From: Methanobacteriales archaeon HGW-Methanobacteriales-1 | GTDB lineage: Archaea; Methanobacteriota; Methanobacteria; Methanobacteriales; Methanobacteriaceae | NCBI GenBank assembly: GCA_002839705.1 | Contig: PGYO01000002.1 | Span: 124,001 to 188,000 of the forward strand | Length of the DNA stretch: 64,000 nt | Direction of reading: 5' to 3' | In this document: positions 37,243-45,884 of the stretch, in pieces | Layout: every line of letters starts with the position of its first letter | Numbering within the stretch: position 1 is the stretch's first letter | Translations under genes and position numbers: made by a program | The notes under the pieces: model-generated | The model's input: only the letters and a program-made list of their open reading frames with translations | Databases searched by the model: none | Told to the model about the DNA's origin: nothing

Positions 37243-37731
37243 TTAGTGTTTTTTAATTCGAGCTATATCTCCAATAGTAGATCCTTTTAAGGAATTCGCT
37301 TTAAATTCCTCACCAGTAGTATCTTCTATTTTTTCTAAAAGATCTATCTTGAGAATTTTCTCAATTTTTCGGGCCAGTTTTGTGTCTGGTGCCATATGAG
37401 CAGTTTCTAATCTAGAAACCACAGATACTTTTTCATTAATTTTTCTTCCTAAATCTTCACGAGACCAGCCTTTCTTTTCTCGGGCCTGTCTAATAATGGT
37501 GTTATAATCTTCAAGTAACTCGTAAGTTGTTTCTCTTCTTCTAGGGCGGCTTTGAGGTATTCTTCTTCCTCGTGCTGTTCCTTGAGGCCCTCGAGCGTGG
37601 GCTGGTTTGGATGGTGGTCTCTGGATTTTACCGAATTTAGAGCAGTCTTTGCAAACTTTCATGGTAGATCCGTCGATTTTTGTAATAATTGGTTCATCAA
37701 TAATTTTTTTCCCGCAAATCTCGCATCTCAT
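37243..37731 (-). CDS. Archaeal MBF1-like transcription factor (aMBF1, TIGR00270-type)
   Basis: A 162-residue protein. An N-terminal zinc ribbon has CEICGKKI and CKDCSKFG. An Arg/Pro-rich linker (about 40-65) is followed by an HTH (about 70-130) with IRQAREKKGWSREDLGRKI. This order is that of archaeal MBF1, which links activators with the basal machinery in eukaryotes. GGGATC precedes the ATG. It is divergent from PAN by 105 bases, an arrangement that may share control. Confidence 0.93.
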   Translation of the reverse strand: MRCEICGKKIIDEPIITKIDGSTMKVCKDCSKFGKIQRPPSKPAHARGPQGTARGRRIPQSRPRRRETTYELLEDYNTIIRQAREKKGWSREDLGRKINEKVSVVSRLETAHMAPDTKLARKIEKILKIDLLEKIEDTTGEEFKANSLKGSTIGDIARIKKH

Positions 37732-37836
37732 AAAGATCCCTTTGTTTTTATATTTATTTAATTCTTACCTCAATATTTAAATATTACTAAAACAAATGTA
37801 GTATCAATAAAATTTATATAGGAGTGTTCTAAGCTC

Positions 37837-39069
37837 ATGGAAAATTCCTCTCAAAGCACACTAAAAAAGATTGAAGACCTTAAAAAAGAAATAAGAATAC
37901 TTAAAGAAGATAATACGAAAACAAAGAGAAATCTGATGTGGAAAGTCAGAAAACTCGAAAAAGATAAGGTTTTAATCGAAAATGAAAAAATTCGACTGGA
38001 CCGAGAAGTTAAATCCCTTCGAGGAGAAGTTGAAAGATTCAGATCACCCCCTTTAGTCATTGCCACAATTACTGAAGTGCTGGACGACCATAGAATTGCT
38101 GTTAAAAGTAGTACTGGCCCACACTTTGTTATTAATTACTCAAGATTCCTTGATGATAAATTACTAGAACCTGGCTCTCGTGTAGCACTAAATCAACAGA
38201 CTTTCAGCATTGTAGATGTTTTACCTTCTGAAAAAGATCCGGTGGTTACTGGTATGGAAGTTGATGAAAAACCTAATGTTTCCTATGAACAAATTGGTGG
38301 TTTAGAAGATCAAGTTGTTGAAGTAAAGGAAACTGTGGAATTACCACTTAAAAAACCAGAATTATTTAAGAAGATTGGAATCGAACCTCCGAAAGGAGTT
38401 CTGTTTTACGGTCCTCCAGGTACTGGAAAGACTCTGCTGGCCAAAGCAGTTGCTCACGAGACTAATGCTACTTTTATAAAAATAGTGGCCTCTGAATTCG
38501 TTCGAAAATATATTGGTGAAGGTGCTCGTTTGGTAAGGGGAGTATTTGAACTGGCCAAAGAAAAATCGCCAAGTATAATATTTATTGACGAAATTGATGC
38601 TGTGGCTGCCAAAAGACTTAAAAGTTCAACCAGTGGGGACAGAGAAGTTCAAAGAACTCTCATGCAACTCCTAGCAGAACTTGATGGATTTGAAGACCGT
38701 GGAAACGTGGGAATAATTGCTGCAACCAACCGCCCAGATATTTTGGACCCTGCCTTACTACGTCCTGGTCGTTTTGACCGATTTATAGAGGTCCCCATAC
38801 CAAATGAAGATGCTAGGCGTGCAATTTTAAAAATTCACACTAAACGAATGTCCTTAGCTGAAGAAGTTGATGTAGAACTTTTATCCAATCTAACTGATGG
38901 TACTTCTGGTGCGGATCTTAAGGCAATTTGTACCGAAGCCGGTATGTTTGCCATTAGAGAAGAACGAGAAGAAGTAACCATGAATGATTTTATGGATGCT
39001 GTTGATAAAATAATCGGTGTGGAAAACGAAGAAGGCTATAATAAAGAAGCTGGAGTGATGTTTGGTTAA
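37837..39069 (+). CDS. pan: Proteasome-activating nucleotidase PAN
   Basis: A 410-residue AAA+ ATPase that unfolds proteins and feeds them to the 20S proteasome. An N-terminal coiled coil (about 5-75) is followed by the OB domain (about 75-135). The AAA core has GPPGTGKT (Walker A), [10 protein letters not shown] (Walker B) and [10 protein letters not shown] (arginine-finger region). The usual HbYX tail is represented by the C-terminal residues VMFG, not the classical three-residue form. A perfect 20-bp palindrome spans the stop codon. GGAGTG lies upstream of the ATG, with a TATA-like TTTATATA close to it. Confidence 0.96.
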
Positions 39070-39080
39070 TATTAACCAAA
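39061..39080. terminator. Perfect 20-bp palindrome at the end of pan
   Basis: TTTGGTTAAT followed by ATTAACCAAA forms a perfect palindrome from the last codons of pan through the stop and seven bases beyond it. A T-rich run follows (39087-39098). It may form a short terminator hairpin. With no loop, the hairpin is weak, so the role is uncertain. Confidence 0.45.
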
Positions 39081-39142
39081 TAACCTATTTTTTATTTTTA
39101 GCTTGAAAATAATTTTTTTATTTTATTAAATGATTATTTTTT

Positions 39143-39200
39143 AGCCAGTGATGAACCCTATGAGCTCTGAACTGTGATGAATGATGGGCGATCTGAGGCT
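39143..39200 (+). ncRNA. C/D box sRNA (2'-O-methylation guide)
   Basis: A 58-base element with all four boxes in order: C box GTGATGA (39148-39154), D' box CTGA (39067+100, i.e. 39167-39170), C' box GTGATGA (39174-39180), D box CTGA (39193-39196). The ends AGCC and GGCT pair as a closing stem. Both guide spacers are 12 bases, the usual archaeal length: ACCCTATGAGCT before D' and ATGATGGGCGAT before D. It would guide methylation of RNA bases pairing with the fifth guide base before each D box. It lies downstream of pan and converges on a phosphoesterase gene. Targets not determined. Confidence 0.88.
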
Positions 39201-39343
39201 AACTTATATTCATTATTTAAAATATTTTTTTGATTTAATTTTTGTTCTATATAATTTTTAGATTTATTTTTAATCTGCTATTTGCAATTAGTGTGAACTT
39301 ATTTTAGAGATTTATTTTTAATCTATAATTTAAATGGGATGAA

Positions 39344-40183
39344 TTAATATTTTACTACTTGATAAATCACTTTATTTCCATTTAAATGTACAATAACATA
39401 ATTAAAGAAGAAATTCTTAGGATTTGTTCCTGCTAAATCTACTCCTGCCCCACCAGTAATTATATACGGAGTTTTATGCCATTTTCCTCTGAAATAACCA
39501 TGTATATGGCTTGAAAATATCATAGTAACATTATATTTATCAAATAAATTGTTCATGTCTTGTGCGGCCTTTAAATTAGTCAAACTGTGACCTTGAACAT
39601 ACTTTCCTTTCCTAGGATCATATAATGGTGTATGTAAAAAAATAAATCTATGCCTATATTTTTGGCTCTTTTTAAGCTCTTTTTGTAACCATTGCCTCTG
39701 AACACTACCTAATCCCTGGTTATTGGAATCATCTAATATGATGAAATAGGCATTTTTGGTAGTAAACGAATAATAAGTTGGCCCAAATATCTGGCGGTAA
39801 TATGTTGATCCCTTATTGGGATAGAGCTCGTGATTTCCGATAATAGTTATGGTTGGGATTTTAGATATTTTAATTTGATTTATAAATCCGTATAACTCAC
39901 TTTTACTTCCAATTGATACCAAATCACCATTGGCCATGGCAAAAACAACATTTCTTTTATTAATGTCCAGAAGCATTTTATTAAAACGCCCTTTAGAATC
40001 ACGATTATCTCCATAAACCACAAAAGAATAACTAGAACTTGATTTATTTATCTTAGCTAGCTGTTGTTGGTTGAAATAGGATGATGTAGTGGTTGTTGTG
40101 CTATGATCCATGAAAAATATGGCTGTCACTGAAACTGCAAAAATAATTAGAAAAATAAATATTAAAAAATATTTTTTGGACAT
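39344..40183 (-). CDS. Membrane-anchored calcineurin-like metallophosphoesterase
   Basis: A 279-residue protein with an N-terminal membrane segment (residues 2-25), so the catalytic domain is outside. Metal motifs are YGDNRDS, ANGDLVS, IGNHELYP, LHTPLYD and SSHIHGY, the full calcineurin-like set. ATG at 40183 has GTGA nine bases before it; a codon three residues upstream is an alternative. It is divergent from the small Cys-peptide cluster and may be unrelated. Substrate unknown. Confidence 0.9.
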   Translation of the reverse strand: MSKKYFLIFIFLIIFAVSVTAIFFMDHSTTTTTSSYFNQQQLAKINKSSSSYSFVVYGDNRDSKGRFNKMLLDINKRNVVFAMANGDLVSIGSKSELYGFINQIKISKIPTITIIGNHELYPNKGSTYYRQIFGPTYYSFTTKNAYFIILDDSNNQGLGSVQRQWLQKELKKSQKYRHRFIFLHTPLYDPRKGKYVQGHSLTNLKAAQDMNNLFDKYNVTMIFSSHIHGYFRGKWHKTPYIITGGAGVDLAGTNPKNFFFNYVIVHLNGNKVIYQVVKY

Positions 40184-40323
40184 AAATTTCACATTTTTAA
40201 AAATTTTACATTTTTAAATCTAACATATAATATATTTTTTAGAGATTTTAATTTTTGCTAAATTTCTCATTTTGAATTAGTTTTGATTATTTTAAATTTC
40301 CATTTTAAATTTAAAAGTAAAAC

Positions 40324-40351
40324 TTTATATATTTAAAGGTTACTATATATT
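40324..40351 (+). promoter_or_regulatory. TATA-like promoter for the Cys-peptide cluster
   Basis: TTTATATA (40324-40331) and a second TATATATT-type run (about 40344-40351) are the only TATA-like boxes on the peptide side of the intergenic region. Initiation about 25 bases downstream would leave a leader of roughly 110-140 bases before the first peptide gene. Confidence 0.45.
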
Positions 40352-40395
40352 AATAGAAATATAACAAAGCGTGGGTGGGAATTTGGATGATTTAA

Positions 40396-40488
40396 TTGAA
40401 ATGGGGAAAAACAATTGAAAGTGTAATGTGTGTTCTGAAACCGGTTGATAATAAAAAATTGATATTTAATAAATTGGAGGGGAAATAA
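40396..40488 (+). CDS. Possible 30-codon leader ORF overlapping the first peptide gene
   Basis: TTG at 40396 follows GGATGAT (40385-40391) and opens a 30-codon frame (an internal ATG lies at 40426). Its TAA shares a base with the ATG of the next gene (TAATG at 40486-40490), an arrangement typical of translational coupling. The product has one Cys and no resemblance to the peptides. It may be a leader, a fourth peptide or chance. Confidence 0.3.
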   Translation: MKWGKTIESVMCVLKPVDNKKLIFNKLEGK

Positions 40489-40631
40489 TGATTGAAAATG
40501 ATGTTACTAGAAAAGGTGTTTGTCAGAAGGAAATTGAAGCTAATTCTGGTGTGACAACTTCTAATTGGGCCTGTGATCGTACTGATTGTCCATCTTATGG
40601 TAAATGGTACTGTCCATTTACGGGATGGTAA
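40488..40631 (+). CDS. Four-Cys peptide 1 (47 aa), exported-peptide cluster
   Basis: A 47-residue peptide with an excellent GGAGGGG ribosome site. Cys are C12, C29, C34 and C42. The C-terminal 21 residues are WACDRTDCPSYGKWYC plus PFTGW: aromatic and Cys-rich, quite unlike the polar, charged N-terminal ~26 residues. This leader/core split is typical of ribosomally made modified peptides or bacteriocins. It lacks a hydrophobic signal peptide and a double-Gly site. It is the first of three tandem peptide genes before an ABC exporter. Strong resemblance to peptide 3. Function inferred. Confidence 0.75.
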   Translation: MIENDVTRKGVCQKEIEANSGVTTSNWACDRTDCPSYGKWYCPFTGW

Positions 40632-40678
40632 TAAACTAAAATAAAATATTTTGTTTATTTATATTTGAGGTGTTTTTT

Positions 40679-40834
40679 ATGGTTGATGTGCTTGGAATTG
40701 GTGAATTGAGTAAAGTTGAAAGTAAAAGGACTAATTCTGGCCCTGTACTTGTTTACTGTGACGAAACTTGCGTTTCTTATGATAATTGTTTTTTCAAGCT
40801 TTTTTCGAATGGTATTTGTCCTTTAGCCATCTAA
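40679..40834 (+). CDS. Four-Cys peptide 2 (51 aa), exported-peptide cluster
   Basis: A 51-residue peptide preceded by TGAGGTG. Cys are C27, C31, C37 and C47. The C-terminal part VYCDETCVSYDNCFF shares the C-x(3,4)-C-x2-Y pattern with peptides 1 and 3, but W-Y-C is replaced by CFF and the tail is hydrophobic (KLFSNGICPLAI). An NSG lies shortly before the first Cys, as in peptide 1. It starts 47 bases after peptide 1 and has its own ribosome site. It could be the second component of a two- or three-peptide set. Confidence 0.7.
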   Translation: MVDVLGIGELSKVESKRTNSGPVLVYCDETCVSYDNCFFKLFSNGICPLAI

Positions 40835-40898
40835 TAGAATAAAACTTGAATTTATTATTTAAAACAATTTCATAATTAAATCAAAAAAGGATGATAAT

Positions 40899-41045
40899 AT
40901 GGATTCTATGATTATAGGGAAAGTAGAAACTCAACAATCTGATTGTAGACTACTAATTCCTTCGGTAGCAGTTAAAGAAGGATGGAAATGTCCAAATACT
41001 AGTTGCTTTGCTTATGGTCAATGGTACTGTATGTATAACTGGTGA
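40899..41045 (+). CDS. Four-Cys peptide 3 (48 aa), exported-peptide cluster
   Basis: A 48-residue peptide preceded by GGATGAT. Cys are C16, C31, C36 and C44. The C-terminal region reads GWKCPNTSCFAYGQWYC then MYNW, aligning with peptide 1 as W-x-C-x4-C-x2-Y-G-x-W-Y-C-x(3,4)-W. The N-terminal 27 residues differ, so selection acts on the C-terminus. It lies 64 bases after peptide 2 and 49 bases before the ABC exporter. No signal peptide. Confidence 0.75.
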   Translation: MDSMIIGKVETQQSDCRLLIPSVAVKEGWKCPNTSCFAYGQWYCMYNW

Positions 41046-41094
41046 TTTATTTTAATCTGTCTTCTACTTTATTTTAGCATAAATAATTTAAATA

Positions 41095-42759
41095 ATGGAA
41101 ATATTAATGAAAAACATGGTAAAAGAGAGTTTAATTAAAGAAAGTTTCAGATTTTTCTTTAATAAATTTATAAAACAACATATTCTAACATTAATAATTA
41201 TACTTGGTTTAAGCTTTTTTACTTTACTTTTCTCTTTTATCAGCCCATTATTGATAAAGGCCCTGGTTGATAACGTTTTTATTGGAAGAGAACTGGGTTT
41301 ATTTCATTATATCGTCATGGGCATTATTTTAATGTATTTGGTATCTTCAGTTTCTAACTATTTTAATAGCTTTGTAACAGGTAGACTACAATTAGTTTTA
41401 CTAAAAAATGTTTCTGAGAGCTGTTTTGAAGCTGTTCAAAATGCTTCCTTAAAAAGTTCCAGTGAATTTAAAGTTGGAGATTTAATTACTCGTATTATAA
41501 GCAATACTCAAATTGCCATAAACGTACCAGTGCGTCTTATTCCCCAACTTTTTATGAGTATTGTGGGCATATTTGTTCCTTTTGCAATAATGTTTTCTTT
41601 AAATGCTCAATTAGCATTGATAGTCATGAGTCCTGTAATTTTGTTTGTATTATCCTCCAAATTTTTTGGAAAAAGAATGGAAATAATTCAAAAATCATTT
41701 TTAGAAATTAATGCCTCAGCCTATTCTTTCTTAAAGGAAAATTTAGCGATTATTCCCATTATTAAAGTTTTCAATCTTGAAAAATGGTCTCAAAATAGAT
41801 TTAAAAATCAAATGGATGACTATTTTGATATTTCTCTTAACTACACCAAGACTTCCTCCTTAAACTCATCTTTAGCATCCCTTATTTTTGCAGTTCCCAC
41901 AGTTTTACTAATTATTTTTGGTGGATACATGGTTATTGATGGCAGTTTAAGTCTAGGATCATTCACCGCTTTCATTTCATATGTGTCTCTATTTTTCTCT
42001 CCAATTTCTCAACTTTCCACTCTCTGGACATCCTATAAAAGTGCCCTACCTGCCTTTGATAGAGTAAAAGAATTGTTTGACATGGAATCTGATGATAATG
42101 GGTCCCATGAGCTAAAAATTTCCAATGGAGAAATAAAATTAAAGAATGTTTCCTTTTCTTATGATAATAGGCCTATTATTAATGATTTCAATGCTACCTT
42201 GGTCAAAGGGTTGAATTACATTGTGGGTGACAATGGAACCGGAAAAAGTACCATTCTCAAATTAATCTGTTCACTTTACCCTATGGATGGTGGAAATATC
42301 CAAATTGATGGGCAAGACATTAAAGAAATAAAAAAAGACTCTTTAATCCATAATATTTCTATGATATTTTCAGACCCATTTCTATTTGATGGTTCTATTT
42401 ATGATAACATTAAAATAGGTAATTTAGGAGCATCTAAAGAGGAAATTATCCAGGTTGCAAAAATGGTTAAAATTCATGATTTTATTGAAAAAACGTCTGA
42501 AGGATATAATACCCAAGTAGGAGAAGATGGAATGTCACTTTCCAGCGGAGAAAAACAGAAAATTGCACTGGCCCGGGCAGTTTTAAAGGATTCACCCATT
42601 ATTCTTTTGGATGAAGTAACTAAATCCATAGATGCTGATTCCAGAGAGGCCATTAATGAAGTCATTAATTCCCTAAAAAATGAAAAAACAATGGTTATTG
42701 TGACCCATAATGCCCATGAAATCCATGAAGAAGGTCACGTTGTATATATGGAAAAATAA
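41095..42759 (+). CDS. ABC exporter (fused permease-ATPase) of the peptide cluster
   Basis: A 554-residue half-transporter working as a dimer. About six membrane helices fill residues 25-300, followed by an ATPase domain. Walker A is GDNGTGKST near 378, the signature is LSSGEKQKIALARA near 481 (LSSGE rather than LSGGQ), Walker B is IILLDE near 502 and the H-loop is VTHNAHE. There is no N-terminal C39 peptidase, so any leader must be removed elsewhere or kept. It directly follows three small Cys peptides on the same strand with no other gene between, so it probably exports them. No obvious ribosome site at the first ATG; ATG at 41107 is possible. Confidence 0.88.
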   Translation: MEILMKNMVKESLIKESFRFFFNKFIKQHILTLIIILGLSFFTLLFSFISPLLIKALVDNVFIGRELGLFHYIVMGIILMYLVSSVSNYFNSFVTGRLQLVLLKNVSESCFEAVQNASLKSSSEFKVGDLITRIISNTQIAINVPVRLIPQLFMSIVGIFVPFAIMFSLNAQLALIVMSPVILFVLSSKFFGKRMEIIQKSFLEINASAYSFLKENLAIIPIIKVFNLEKWSQNRFKNQMDDYFDISLNYTKTSSLNSSLASLIFAVPTVLLIIFGGYMVIDGSLSLGSFTAFISYVSLFFSPISQLSTLWTSYKSALPAFDRVKELFDMESDDNGSHELKISNGEIKLKNVSFSYDNRPIINDFNATLVKGLNYIVGDNGTGKSTILKLICSLYPMDGGNIQIDGQDIKEIKKDSLIHNISMIFSDPFLFDGSIYDNIKIGNLGASKEEIIQVAKMVKIHDFIEKTSEGYNTQVGEDGMSLSSGEKQKIALARAVLKDSPIILLDEVTKSIDADSREAINEVINSLKNEKTMVIVTHNAHEIHEEGHVVYMEK

Positions 42760-42781
42760 AATATTTAGGAGAGTCTATTGA

Positions 42782-42812
42782 ATTTCAGATCATGCACATT
42801 TTAATCTGAAAT
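42782..42812. terminator. Bidirectional hairpin between convergent genes
   Basis: ATTTCAGAT (42782-42790) pairs perfectly with ATCTGAAAT (42804-42812), with a 13-base loop. It sits between the ends of the ABC exporter (+) and the 4Fe-4S gene (-) and could end both transcripts. Confidence 0.55.
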
Positions 42813-42815
42813 GAA

Positions 42816-43634
42816 TTATTTTATCTCTCCATTAATGGAAATAGTATAATCCTTGATATTTATGTTCTTCTGGGCTTTTTCCAGTGCTCTTTTAATTATA
42901 ATTTCAATTCCAGAGCAACATGGAACTTCCATATGCACAATCGATATGGATTTTATATTCTGAGTTTCAAAGATCGCTGCTAATTTATCAACGTAATCAT
43001 CTATGGTTTTATCTAGTTTAGGACAGAAAATAATCAGAACTTTATCTTTTAAGAATTTCTGGTGGAAATTAGGATAAGCAAATGGTGCACAATCTGCAGC
43101 AATTAATAAATCTGCATTCTTTAAGTAAGGTGCTTGGGGATGTAAAAGCTGTAATTGTATGGGCCAATTTCGTAGCTCAGCACTTAGAATAGTTGATTCA
43201 CTTTTATCATTTCCAGAACTATTTGAACAAATTTCTTGAGCCATGGATCCGGGACAGCCACAGGCCAAGGGTTTTTCTTCATAATCTGGGATACCAATAT
43301 TTCTTTCTTTTAAAAAATCAAGGGCTTCATTTAGAAATTTATCTTCGCCGTGTTCCTGTAGATGTTGTAAATGGGCCTTTATAACATGGGGTCCGCCTTT
43401 GATAATATTTTCCATGGTTTTAGACTCATCATAAGGAACTGCTTCTCTTTGTTCAATTTCTATGGCTCCCTGAGGGCATGTTCCAATACAGGCCCCTAAA
43501 CCATCACAGAAAAGGTCGCTGATAAGTCTGGCCTTACCATCAATTACTTGTAATGCTCCTTCGGGACATCCGGTGATACAGTCGCCACATCCAGTACATT
43601 TTTCTTCATTAATTTTGATAATATCCCTTTTCAT
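42816..43634 (-). CDS. 4Fe-4S dicluster protein with C-terminal Cys-rich domain
   Basis: A 272-residue cytoplasmic iron-sulfur protein. Two ferredoxin motifs lie at the N-terminus: CTGCGDCITGCPEG and CDGLGACIGTCPQG, enough for two 4Fe-4S clusters. The later part has CGCPGSMAQEIC, ADCAPFAYPNFH, IFCPKLD and PCCSGIE, a further Cys-rich region. I chose ATG at 43634, with AGGGAT upstream, over an ATG ten residues earlier. It is followed 70 bases later by a converging... in fact same-strand UPF0280 gene upstream at 43736. Electron carrier by family; partner unknown. It is not a radical-SAM enzyme, so it is not an obvious peptide modifier. Confidence 0.85.
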   Translation of the reverse strand: MKRDIIKINEEKCTGCGDCITGCPEGALQVIDGKARLISDLFCDGLGACIGTCPQGAIEIEQREAVPYDESKTMENIIKGGPHVIKAHLQHLQEHGEDKFLNEALDFLKERNIGIPDYEEKPLACGCPGSMAQEICSNSSGNDKSESTILSAELRNWPIQLQLLHPQAPYLKNADLLIAADCAPFAYPNFHQKFLKDKVLIIFCPKLDKTIDDYVDKLAAIFETQNIKSISIVHMEVPCCSGIEIIIKRALEKAQKNINIKDYTISINGEIK

Positions 43635-43735
43635 AGTAATCCCTGCATTTGAATTTATTATCAACTCAAATTTTTAAATTAATATCTAAACATCTATAAT
43701 TTAATATGATTTTTATGTTTAAAATAATTTAAGCA

Positions 43736-44461
43736 TTAAATTTCAAATAAATCACCTAAAACGGCTTTTTTATCAGTTTTTACTAATTGGGGTATTTTAC
43801 CCATAGTCCCTGCATTTTCCCCTACAACGACCATTACTCCTTTAAAATGCTCTTTAAAATCATCTGCATGATTCAAAGAATTTTGAACTGCATCATGATC
43901 ATTGATTCCTTGGGCAGTATTGGCAATTGATGTGGCCAGAGCATCTGCAGTACTGGCCTCGGAAGCAAATACCGTCACTGAATCGGACCTTCCAAAACTA
44001 ATGGAATGGCCCACGGTCCCTGAAGAAGTGCATATGCCTAATGGCGTTTTATTTGCCTTGATTTTAAATCCAATGCTTCCTGAAAGGGAAGATGTTCCAG
44101 CATAAAGGCCAGTATTAATATCTTTATTTACTTTAAGGGCAATATCTCCCCCATTATCAATAATACTATAATTTGATCCTTTTTCTAATAAAAAAGAAAG
44201 TGAAAGCTGGGAAATGGTCCCGGCCACTGCAGCCATAGGTCCTACTTCTGCTTTTCTACCAGCGCGAGCCATTAATTTCACAACTAAAGGCCCATCATTA
44301 ATTACTAGTGGTTCGAGTGATGTCAAAAATTCAGGATTTCTGCGAGAGAAGTTTATAATTTCCATTCTTTGCTTTAAAATAAATCCAGAAAGCTGGTGAT
44401 TATTTAAGTCAGTTACCAGGTTTATTTGGGTTTCCTGAATGTTTATTTTTTCTCTGAACAT
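43736..44461 (-). CDS. UPF0280 family protein (ApbE-like fold)
   Basis: A 241-residue protein matching UPF0280, distantly related to ApbE flavin transferases. Characteristic stretches are [39 protein letters not shown] and [14 protein letters not shown]. Function is unproven. It lies upstream of the 4Fe-4S gene on the same strand with about 100 bases between, so the two may be cotranscribed. GTGA precedes the ATG. Confidence 0.88.
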
Positions 44462-44804
44462 TATTTCACTTTTAATTGTTTGAATTCCTTTAAAGCGATG
44501 ATTGGTTTTTATTTATAATTTTCATTAATTTTTCTAATTATAAATTAACCTCTATTTTATATTCTTAATTCTATTATATTTTATATATTCAATTATTTGT
44601 TTAATCATTTGAATATTAATATCAATTTATTACATTAAATTGTTTTATTAAAAACTCTATTTTAATATTAAGGAGATATAATAAGTTTTATAAAGATATA
44701 AATCATATAAAAATAAATTTATTTAAAGATAATTTGAGTTTTTAATATTCTAAAAATCTGGAAATAAGTTATTTAAAGATATTTTTCATAATTAAAGTGA
44801 TACA
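44462..44804. other. AT-rich divergent intergenic region
   Basis: No gene recognised over 343 bases between divergent UPF0280 and PH-domain genes. It should contain both promoters. AGTGAT at its right end is the ribosome site of the PH gene. Confidence 0.5.
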
Positions 44805-45545
44805 ATGTTTGGTAGAAGTAGAAAATCTTATCACGCTGGTGAGAGAGTTCTTTCAAGATGCAGACCCCGGATATTTTTACATAGTAAATCTGCTATTATT
44901 AAAATAATCTTTTTTCTGATTTTAGTATACTTCTTTAGGTCAGTAGTAAATTTAGCAGTAATTATACAAAATGAAATAATTAATACAGTTAAGGTGCCCT
45001 TAGTTGAAACTACAGTCATGATAATGTTTGGTTTAATGTTTTTACTCATTTTATGGGCTATTCTGGATATAATTTCATGGAAATATACGGAATATCAACT
45101 CACCACTCTAAGAATTATCACTAAACGAGGAATATTCAGTAAAAAAAGGGCCTATGTTTATTACGATAAAATTGAGGATATTAGCATTTACCAAAGTTTC
45201 CTGGAGAGAATGCTTTCTTCAGGTGATATTGAAGTATTTAGTGGTCATGAGAACACCCATGTAGTTCTGACTAATGTCCCTCACCCCGAAGTTCTGGAAG
45301 ACAAGATAAATCAGATTATGAATGGCGATTGGAAGTCTTTCAGATCCAAAAACAGCCGTAAGAATTACTATAATCCTGAAAAAAGTTTTAAGAAAAAACT
45401 ATCCTTTAGTGATCCAGAATACTGGGAAACTGAAAAAAGTTCTAATAAGCCTGAAATAAAACCTGAAGCAAAAGAAGATAAAAATTCTCCTAAAAAGGAA
45501 AAACACGTCATGGAAAGACATTCTGAGAGATTTAAAAGAAGATGA
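44805..45545 (+). CDS. Membrane PH-domain protein (bPH2/YdbS-like)
   Basis: A 246-residue membrane protein. Two hydrophobic segments (about 28-50 and 65-90) are followed by a bacterial PH domain (bPH2) with YTEYQLTTLRIITKRGIFSKK and VYYDKIEDISIYQSFLERML. The C-terminal ~60 residues are highly charged, Lys/Glu-rich and likely disordered. AGTGAT precedes the ATG. Function unknown; family members sit at the cytoplasmic face. Confidence 0.83.
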   Translation: MFGRSRKSYHAGERVLSRCRPRIFLHSKSAIIKIIFFLILVYFFRSVVNLAVIIQNEIINTVKVPLVETTVMIMFGLMFLLILWAILDIISWKYTEYQLTTLRIITKRGIFSKKRAYVYYDKIEDISIYQSFLERMLSSGDIEVFSGHENTHVVLTNVPHPEVLEDKINQIMNGDWKSFRSKNSRKNYYNPEKSFKKKLSFSDPEYWETEKSSNKPEIKPEAKEDKNSPKKEKHVMERHSERFKRR

Positions 45546-45884
45546 ATGACATAATTCTATTTTTATTTAAATAGATTAAATATTTTTATTCATTAAATTC
45601 AAAAAATTTAATTTATAAAAAGTTTTATTGAATTAGCACATATTTTATTTATCTATAGTTTCATACTAATATTTATACTAAAATTTTTATTTAGAAATTT
45701 TATTGAGTTTAATCATAGATTCTATTCTTCATATTTTAAAAATAAGACTTGAATATTTATCCAATAAAACAAATTTGTTAATTAAAAAGAATTCCATCTA
45801 ATAGTTCACAATATAATCTTATCCCGTTGATAATTTCAATTGGATTTTTTATTGTTATTTAAATTAATATCTGGAAAAGATAAA
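45546..45884. other. AT-rich intergenic region
   Basis: About 340 bases before the FAD-dependent reductase. No gene or RNA recognised; an in-frame extension of the reductase up to 45840 lacks resemblance to the family. Confidence 0.5.

Follow-up and report, generated by a model that had tools for sequence, protein, structure and literature searches.

Genome mining of the archaea has recovered many RiPP clusters, radical-SAM types and clusters from Methanobacteriota among them, and few of the products have been characterised (PMC12144867; for archaeal RiPP mining see also PMC10105419). Class II lanthipeptides are reported to be confined to the Haloarchaea, the only group from which LanM-type clusters have been described (PMC12144867). 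The archaeal peptide literature that was found centres on the haloarchaea, competition or signalling by peptides has seldom been documented in methanogens, and literature searches under the names of methanogen peptide models found nothing. Among described systems, sactipeptide or RiPP-like clusters of the same archaeal family (CcpM-like in genome G142; AlbA-like in G132, G133, G136 and G137) share an exporter clade with the locus reported here, and several have small Cys peptides nearby, as it does; they carry radical-SAM maturase genes, whereas this locus has none, and their peptides are unrelated to the present ones in sequence. In class II bacteriocin systems with a peptidase-containing ABC transporter, short leader–core peptides likewise stand in tandem with the exporter, but the pump found here has no C39 domain and the leaders end in NSG or KEG, with no double-glycine site. 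Haloarchaeal lanthipeptides and halocins are secreted archaeal peptides, as is predicted for the peptides described below, although no LanM-type cluster adjoins their genes.

The window analysed here is a stretch of 64,000 nucleotides from Methanobacteriales archaeon HGW-Methanobacteriales-1, and all positions given are those of the window. It was compared with the genomes of two other species of the same genus, G140 and G139. With moderate confidence, the locus is read as a self-contained exported-peptide cassette whose pump comes from a RiPP-exporter lineage and which works without a dedicated radical-SAM maturase.

Gene content of the cassette

The features of the locus are as follows.

39241–42815: stretch missing in G139 (empty site), covering the cassette and the metallophosphatase gene
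39344–40192, reverse strand: metallophosphatase gene, between the PAN ATPase gene and the cassette; absent at this site in G140 and G139
40324–40331, forward strand: archaeal TATA-like box TTTATATA, a putative promoter element
40352–40487, forward strand: 5' leader of the array, roughly 130 nt, conserved on alignment with G140
40488–40631, forward strand: pep1, 47 aa, four Cys (MIENDVTRKGVCQKEIEANSG / VTTSNWACDRTDCPSYGKWYCPFTGW), preceded by TTGGAGGGG
40679–40834, forward strand: pep2, 51 aa, four Cys, all within the C-terminal half, preceded by TTGAGGTG
40899–41045, forward strand: pep3, 48 aa, four Cys, preceded by AAGGATGAT
41107–42759, forward strand: ABC half-exporter (TMD and NBD), 550 aa, probable start revised from 41095

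The preliminary description had reported three tandem genes for four-Cys peptides of 47, 51 and 48 residues with strong ribosome sites, and both the frames and a good Shine-Dalgarno motif ahead of each were confirmed. Its start of the feature, 40396, lies about 90 bases before pep1 within the 5' leader; the genes themselves are where it had placed them. When both strands of the window were searched for frames of 40–60 aa with an ATG start, a Shine-Dalgarno motif and at least four Cys, only pep1, pep2 and pep3 were returned. Alignment of pep1 with pep3 scored 71; shuffled sequences averaged 23 (sd 4.9), none of 2000 scoring as high, and on this comparison the two are clearly homologous. The similarity of pep2 to either, a shared CDxTC-x-SY, is weak (7% of shuffles scored as high) and does not demonstrably indicate homology; its membership of the array therefore rests on position, size and Cys count. 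With E values of up to 10 allowed, none of the three had a match among the Pfam and NCBIfam models. These models included TIGR04165, the methanogen Cys-peptide model that the preliminary description had proposed searching, and membership of that family was rejected.

A leader/core layout is suggested by conservation across five peptides, three from the window and two from G140. At the expected place the leaders end in NSG, NSG, KEG, NTG and NSG, with no double-glycine-type end in any of the five. In four of the five the putative core that follows holds three Cys, not four; pep1, pep3 and both G140 peptides have their fourth Cys in the N-terminal part, so that the uncleaved chain has four. The C-terminal motif of pep3 reads WKC-x4-C-x2-YGQWYC-MYNW. 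AlphaFold predictions for pep1 with pep3 gave no confident fold (pLDDT 56) and were too weak for use.

Upstream of the array, the TATA-like box and what follows it are conserved in G140. A structured RNA leader was considered and rejected, since the Rfam scan was empty and the fold was not unusually stable (z-score +1.25). A frame starting from TTG at 40387–40486, MDDLIEMGKTIEIVMCVQKQIDNKKINI, is open in G140 and is broken in the window by one extra A; the region at 40396 was rejected as a fourth precursor, showing no significant similarity to the peptides.

The exporter is the next gene after the array and is read in the same direction. Its translation probably begins at 41107 or 41116 and not at 41095, since the ATG at 41095 is ATT in G140 and is followed there by an in-frame TAA. 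The product has the ABC_membrane and ABC_tran domains only, with no N-terminal C39 peptidase, and it retains intact Walker A, Walker B, signature and H-loop motifs. Its best matches among solved structures are general ABCB pumps, bacteriocin transporters ranking lower, and its substrate would not be fixed by sequence alone.

Occurrence in related species

A profile of the peptides was run against 152 Methanobacteriota genomes and matched only the window genome and G140, two peptides in each. The cassette is known from only two species. The G140 homologues (L063:4677-4823 and L063:4871-5011) lie at the same site and run straight into the first codons of the exporter, where the contig ends; the next contig opens with the rest of the exporter, 97% identical, followed by the same right-hand neighbours as in the window. 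In G139 the left flank (window 37243–39240) and the right flank (42816–45596) are joined over 22 bp, and the rest of that genome yielded neither the peptides nor the exporter. As G140 carries both and G139 neither, array and exporter occur together or not at all. The metallophosphatase gene, missing from this site in G140, is therefore not part of the cassette.

These comparisons bear out conserved synteny with the exporter, which the preliminary description had named as support for the system, and the dedication of the pump to the peptides. The methanogen host first proposed is likewise supported. Absence of the frames from close relatives, which the preliminary description had named as counting against the system, holds for G139 with its clean empty site and not for G140. 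Searches of IMG/VR, phages and plasmids for relatives of the peptides gave only matches judged to be chance: a 13-residue match on a GC-rich IMG/VR contig (L157), so judged after its region had been read, and phage and plasmid matches at E 6–7.

Phylogeny of the exporter

In a maximum likelihood tree the window exporter falls within a 15-row clade of Methanobacteriaceae (support 100/100), as sister to the exporter of G142 (100/97); some members of the clade are on long branches and are less surely placed. A Gln-to-Ser change in the Q-loop is common to nearly all members. Nine have a radical-SAM gene near the exporter, none was seen near the exporters at L040 and L041, and the neighbourhoods at L067 and L071 are cut by contig ends. 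In G142, two radical-SAM genes of maturase-like type (best models TIGR04068 CcpM and TIGR04193, both under cut-off) and a Cys-rich 55-aa peptide come immediately before the exporter; AlbA-like radical-SAM genes are found near the exporter copies of G132, G133, G136 and G137, and the G031 exporter is about 2 kb from a CcpM-like one. From its placement inside this clade, together with the radical-SAM genes near the clade's members, the window pump is by descent part of a lineage associated with RiPP-type clusters.

Several of these neighbourhoods were also noted in their own right. The G142 locus (L065:5382-10004) appears to be a radical-SAM RiPP cluster, with FCRACRCSCSCGWW in its 55-aa peptide and with CcpM-like and SPASM-with-grasp-like enzymes. 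AlbA-like radical-SAM clusters of genus g14 are found at L066, L068:178-5026, L070, L073, L074:3212-7944, L075 and L076, and some of them include 38-aa three-Cys peptides (MDPKIDGGIECIVCVWC..., MNPEMNSTPWCFACAGC...) that resemble subtilosin-type precursors. At L080:6650-11369 in G031, a CcpM-like radical-SAM gene and a Cys-rich peptide (KCTTCSCSSCKCGSGLRWW) lie near an exporter and a flippase-like gene.

Search for a modifying enzyme

No maturase or protease gene adjoins the window cassette, as had first been described, and the SPASM sactisynthase that marks a sactipeptide cluster of the subtilosin type is likewise missing from it. From this absence the preliminary description had taken either a remotely encoded modifier or a disulfide-only peptide to be implied. 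The former would make the peptides RiPPs modified in trans, an unlinked radical-SAM enzyme (the TIGR04083 family member on another contig) or some other maturase adding thioether or C–C crosslinks before export. Most sister exporters are near AlbA- or CcpM-like maturases, and a core of three Cys with Tyr and Trp would suit crosslinking chemistry. The window genome does encode a TIGR04083 enzyme, its single Pfam SPASM match (622.7 bits, cut-off 300), but the same enzyme occurs in all three species and is 96% identical in G139, which has no cassette. TIGR04165 peptides, the partners of TIGR04083 enzymes in methanogens, are like those of the window Cys-containing and about 50 aa long; they too occur in all three species regardless of the cassette. 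In the window genome the matches above cut-off, like the TIGR04083 enzyme, are encoded away from the cassette, on other contigs, and the window peptides are unlike them.

The three radical-SAM complements argue the same way. There were 23 matches in the window genome and 19 in G140, an assembly about 94% complete in which a gene may have been missed, and all 19 have an orthologue in cassette-less G139 (about 87–98% identity); none, therefore, co-segregates with the cassette, and no candidate trans enzyme emerged. All three species encode PqqD and YcaO, whereas none was found to have MNIO. Across these four families (radical-SAM, PqqD, YcaO and MNIO), no modifying enzyme of the kind that defines a RiPP, adjacent to or co-segregating with the precursors, was seen. 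Modification in trans is accordingly weakened and is considered unlikely.

A SPASM-like radical-SAM gene confined to the window genome (L109) was rejected as a trans enzyme, having no orthologue in G140. At L162:7248-8300 (reverse strand), a 350-aa SPASM-like radical-SAM protein, for which neither G140 nor G139 has an orthologue in its radical-SAM set, is encoded near an ABC transporter and ferredoxin/nitrogenase-like genes. C39-like domains present in the window genome and G140 and not in G139 include those of L172 and L173, very large repeat-rich surface-type proteins of 1600–1700 aa, and no connection of these domains with the cassette emerged.

Substitution rates and recombination

Between the window genome and G140, the exporter gave dN 0.015 and dS 0.145, a dN/dS of 0.10 that indicates purifying selection (the flanking PAN ATPase, used for comparison, gave 0.04). 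For pep1 and its G140 counterpart dN was 0.20 and dS 0.21, and a ratio of about 0.9 over 47 codons would not by itself separate diversifying from relaxed selection. Such a ratio, with substitutions spread evenly over codon positions (9/8/8), would fit a former RiPP cluster that has lost its maturase and whose peptides are now drifting, as would the maturases retained in sister clusters and the possible upstream frame, open in G140 and broken in the window. Decay of this kind sits poorly with an exporter under purifying selection, with five intact peptide frames in which a 3-nt indel stays in frame, and with strong ribosome sites and a conserved TATA box and leader region. Moreover, Cys12, Cys29, Cys34, Cys42, Tyr37, Gly38, Trp40 and the terminal Trp (pep1 numbering) are fixed in four of the five peptides, which are otherwise only 36–74% identical to pep1. 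A relic is accordingly judged quite improbable.

Intracellular micro-proteins that bind metal through four Cys, and whose operon with a general exporter is incidental, would account for the four-Cys set of the uncleaved chains, but are likewise quite improbable given the absence of a confident fold or family match, the fast change and differing number of tandem copies, and an exporter from a RiPP-associated clade to which they are strictly linked.

The head of the second G140 peptide resembles that of pep1 (88% nucleotide identity), and its tail and 3' flank resemble those of pep3 (92%). From this pattern of matches, its halves were probably joined by recombination between tandem copies.

Predicted working and role

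In the favoured reading, that of an exported-peptide cassette without its own maturase, one transcript from the TATA box at about 40324 would yield two to three short precursors. Each would begin with a leader of about 21 residues (for example MIENxxxRKGVCQKEIEANSG), followed by a C-terminal core whose framework is C-x4-C-x2-Y-G-x-W-[YW]-C and which ends in a variable aromatic tail. Acting as a homodimer, the exporter encoded downstream would carry the precursors across the membrane, and the peptides would leave unmodified or be closed by disulfides outside. Because the pump has no C39 domain, trimming would fall to a general protease. The disulfide-only peptide first suggested is not a simple case, since a cleaved three-Cys core could not pair all its Cys internally; this argues that one Cys is free, that the peptides dimerise or that the Cys of the leader is kept.

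Once secreted, the peptides would probably serve antagonism or signalling among closely related organisms. Patchy occurrence, fast change of the core and changing copy number are consistent with antagonism; signalling is structurally just as possible. The cassette is real and linked, its peptides are probably exported, and it represents a known kind of system in a form that lacks a maturase. Since it is enzyme-free, it would probably escape genome mining that takes a maturase gene as its starting point. It is small, its predicted products are short, and one genus offers both natural carriers and a natural empty site, so that production, export and effect are directly testable. More tentatively, the peptides may represent a methanogen-specific secreted family, in which a RiPP exporter has been recruited for unmodified Cys/Trp-rich peptides that need no dedicated maturase, recombination between tandem copies at the YGxWYC core they share exchanges heads and tails to give new products, and the whole is gained or lost as a cassette for competition or signalling among methanogens.
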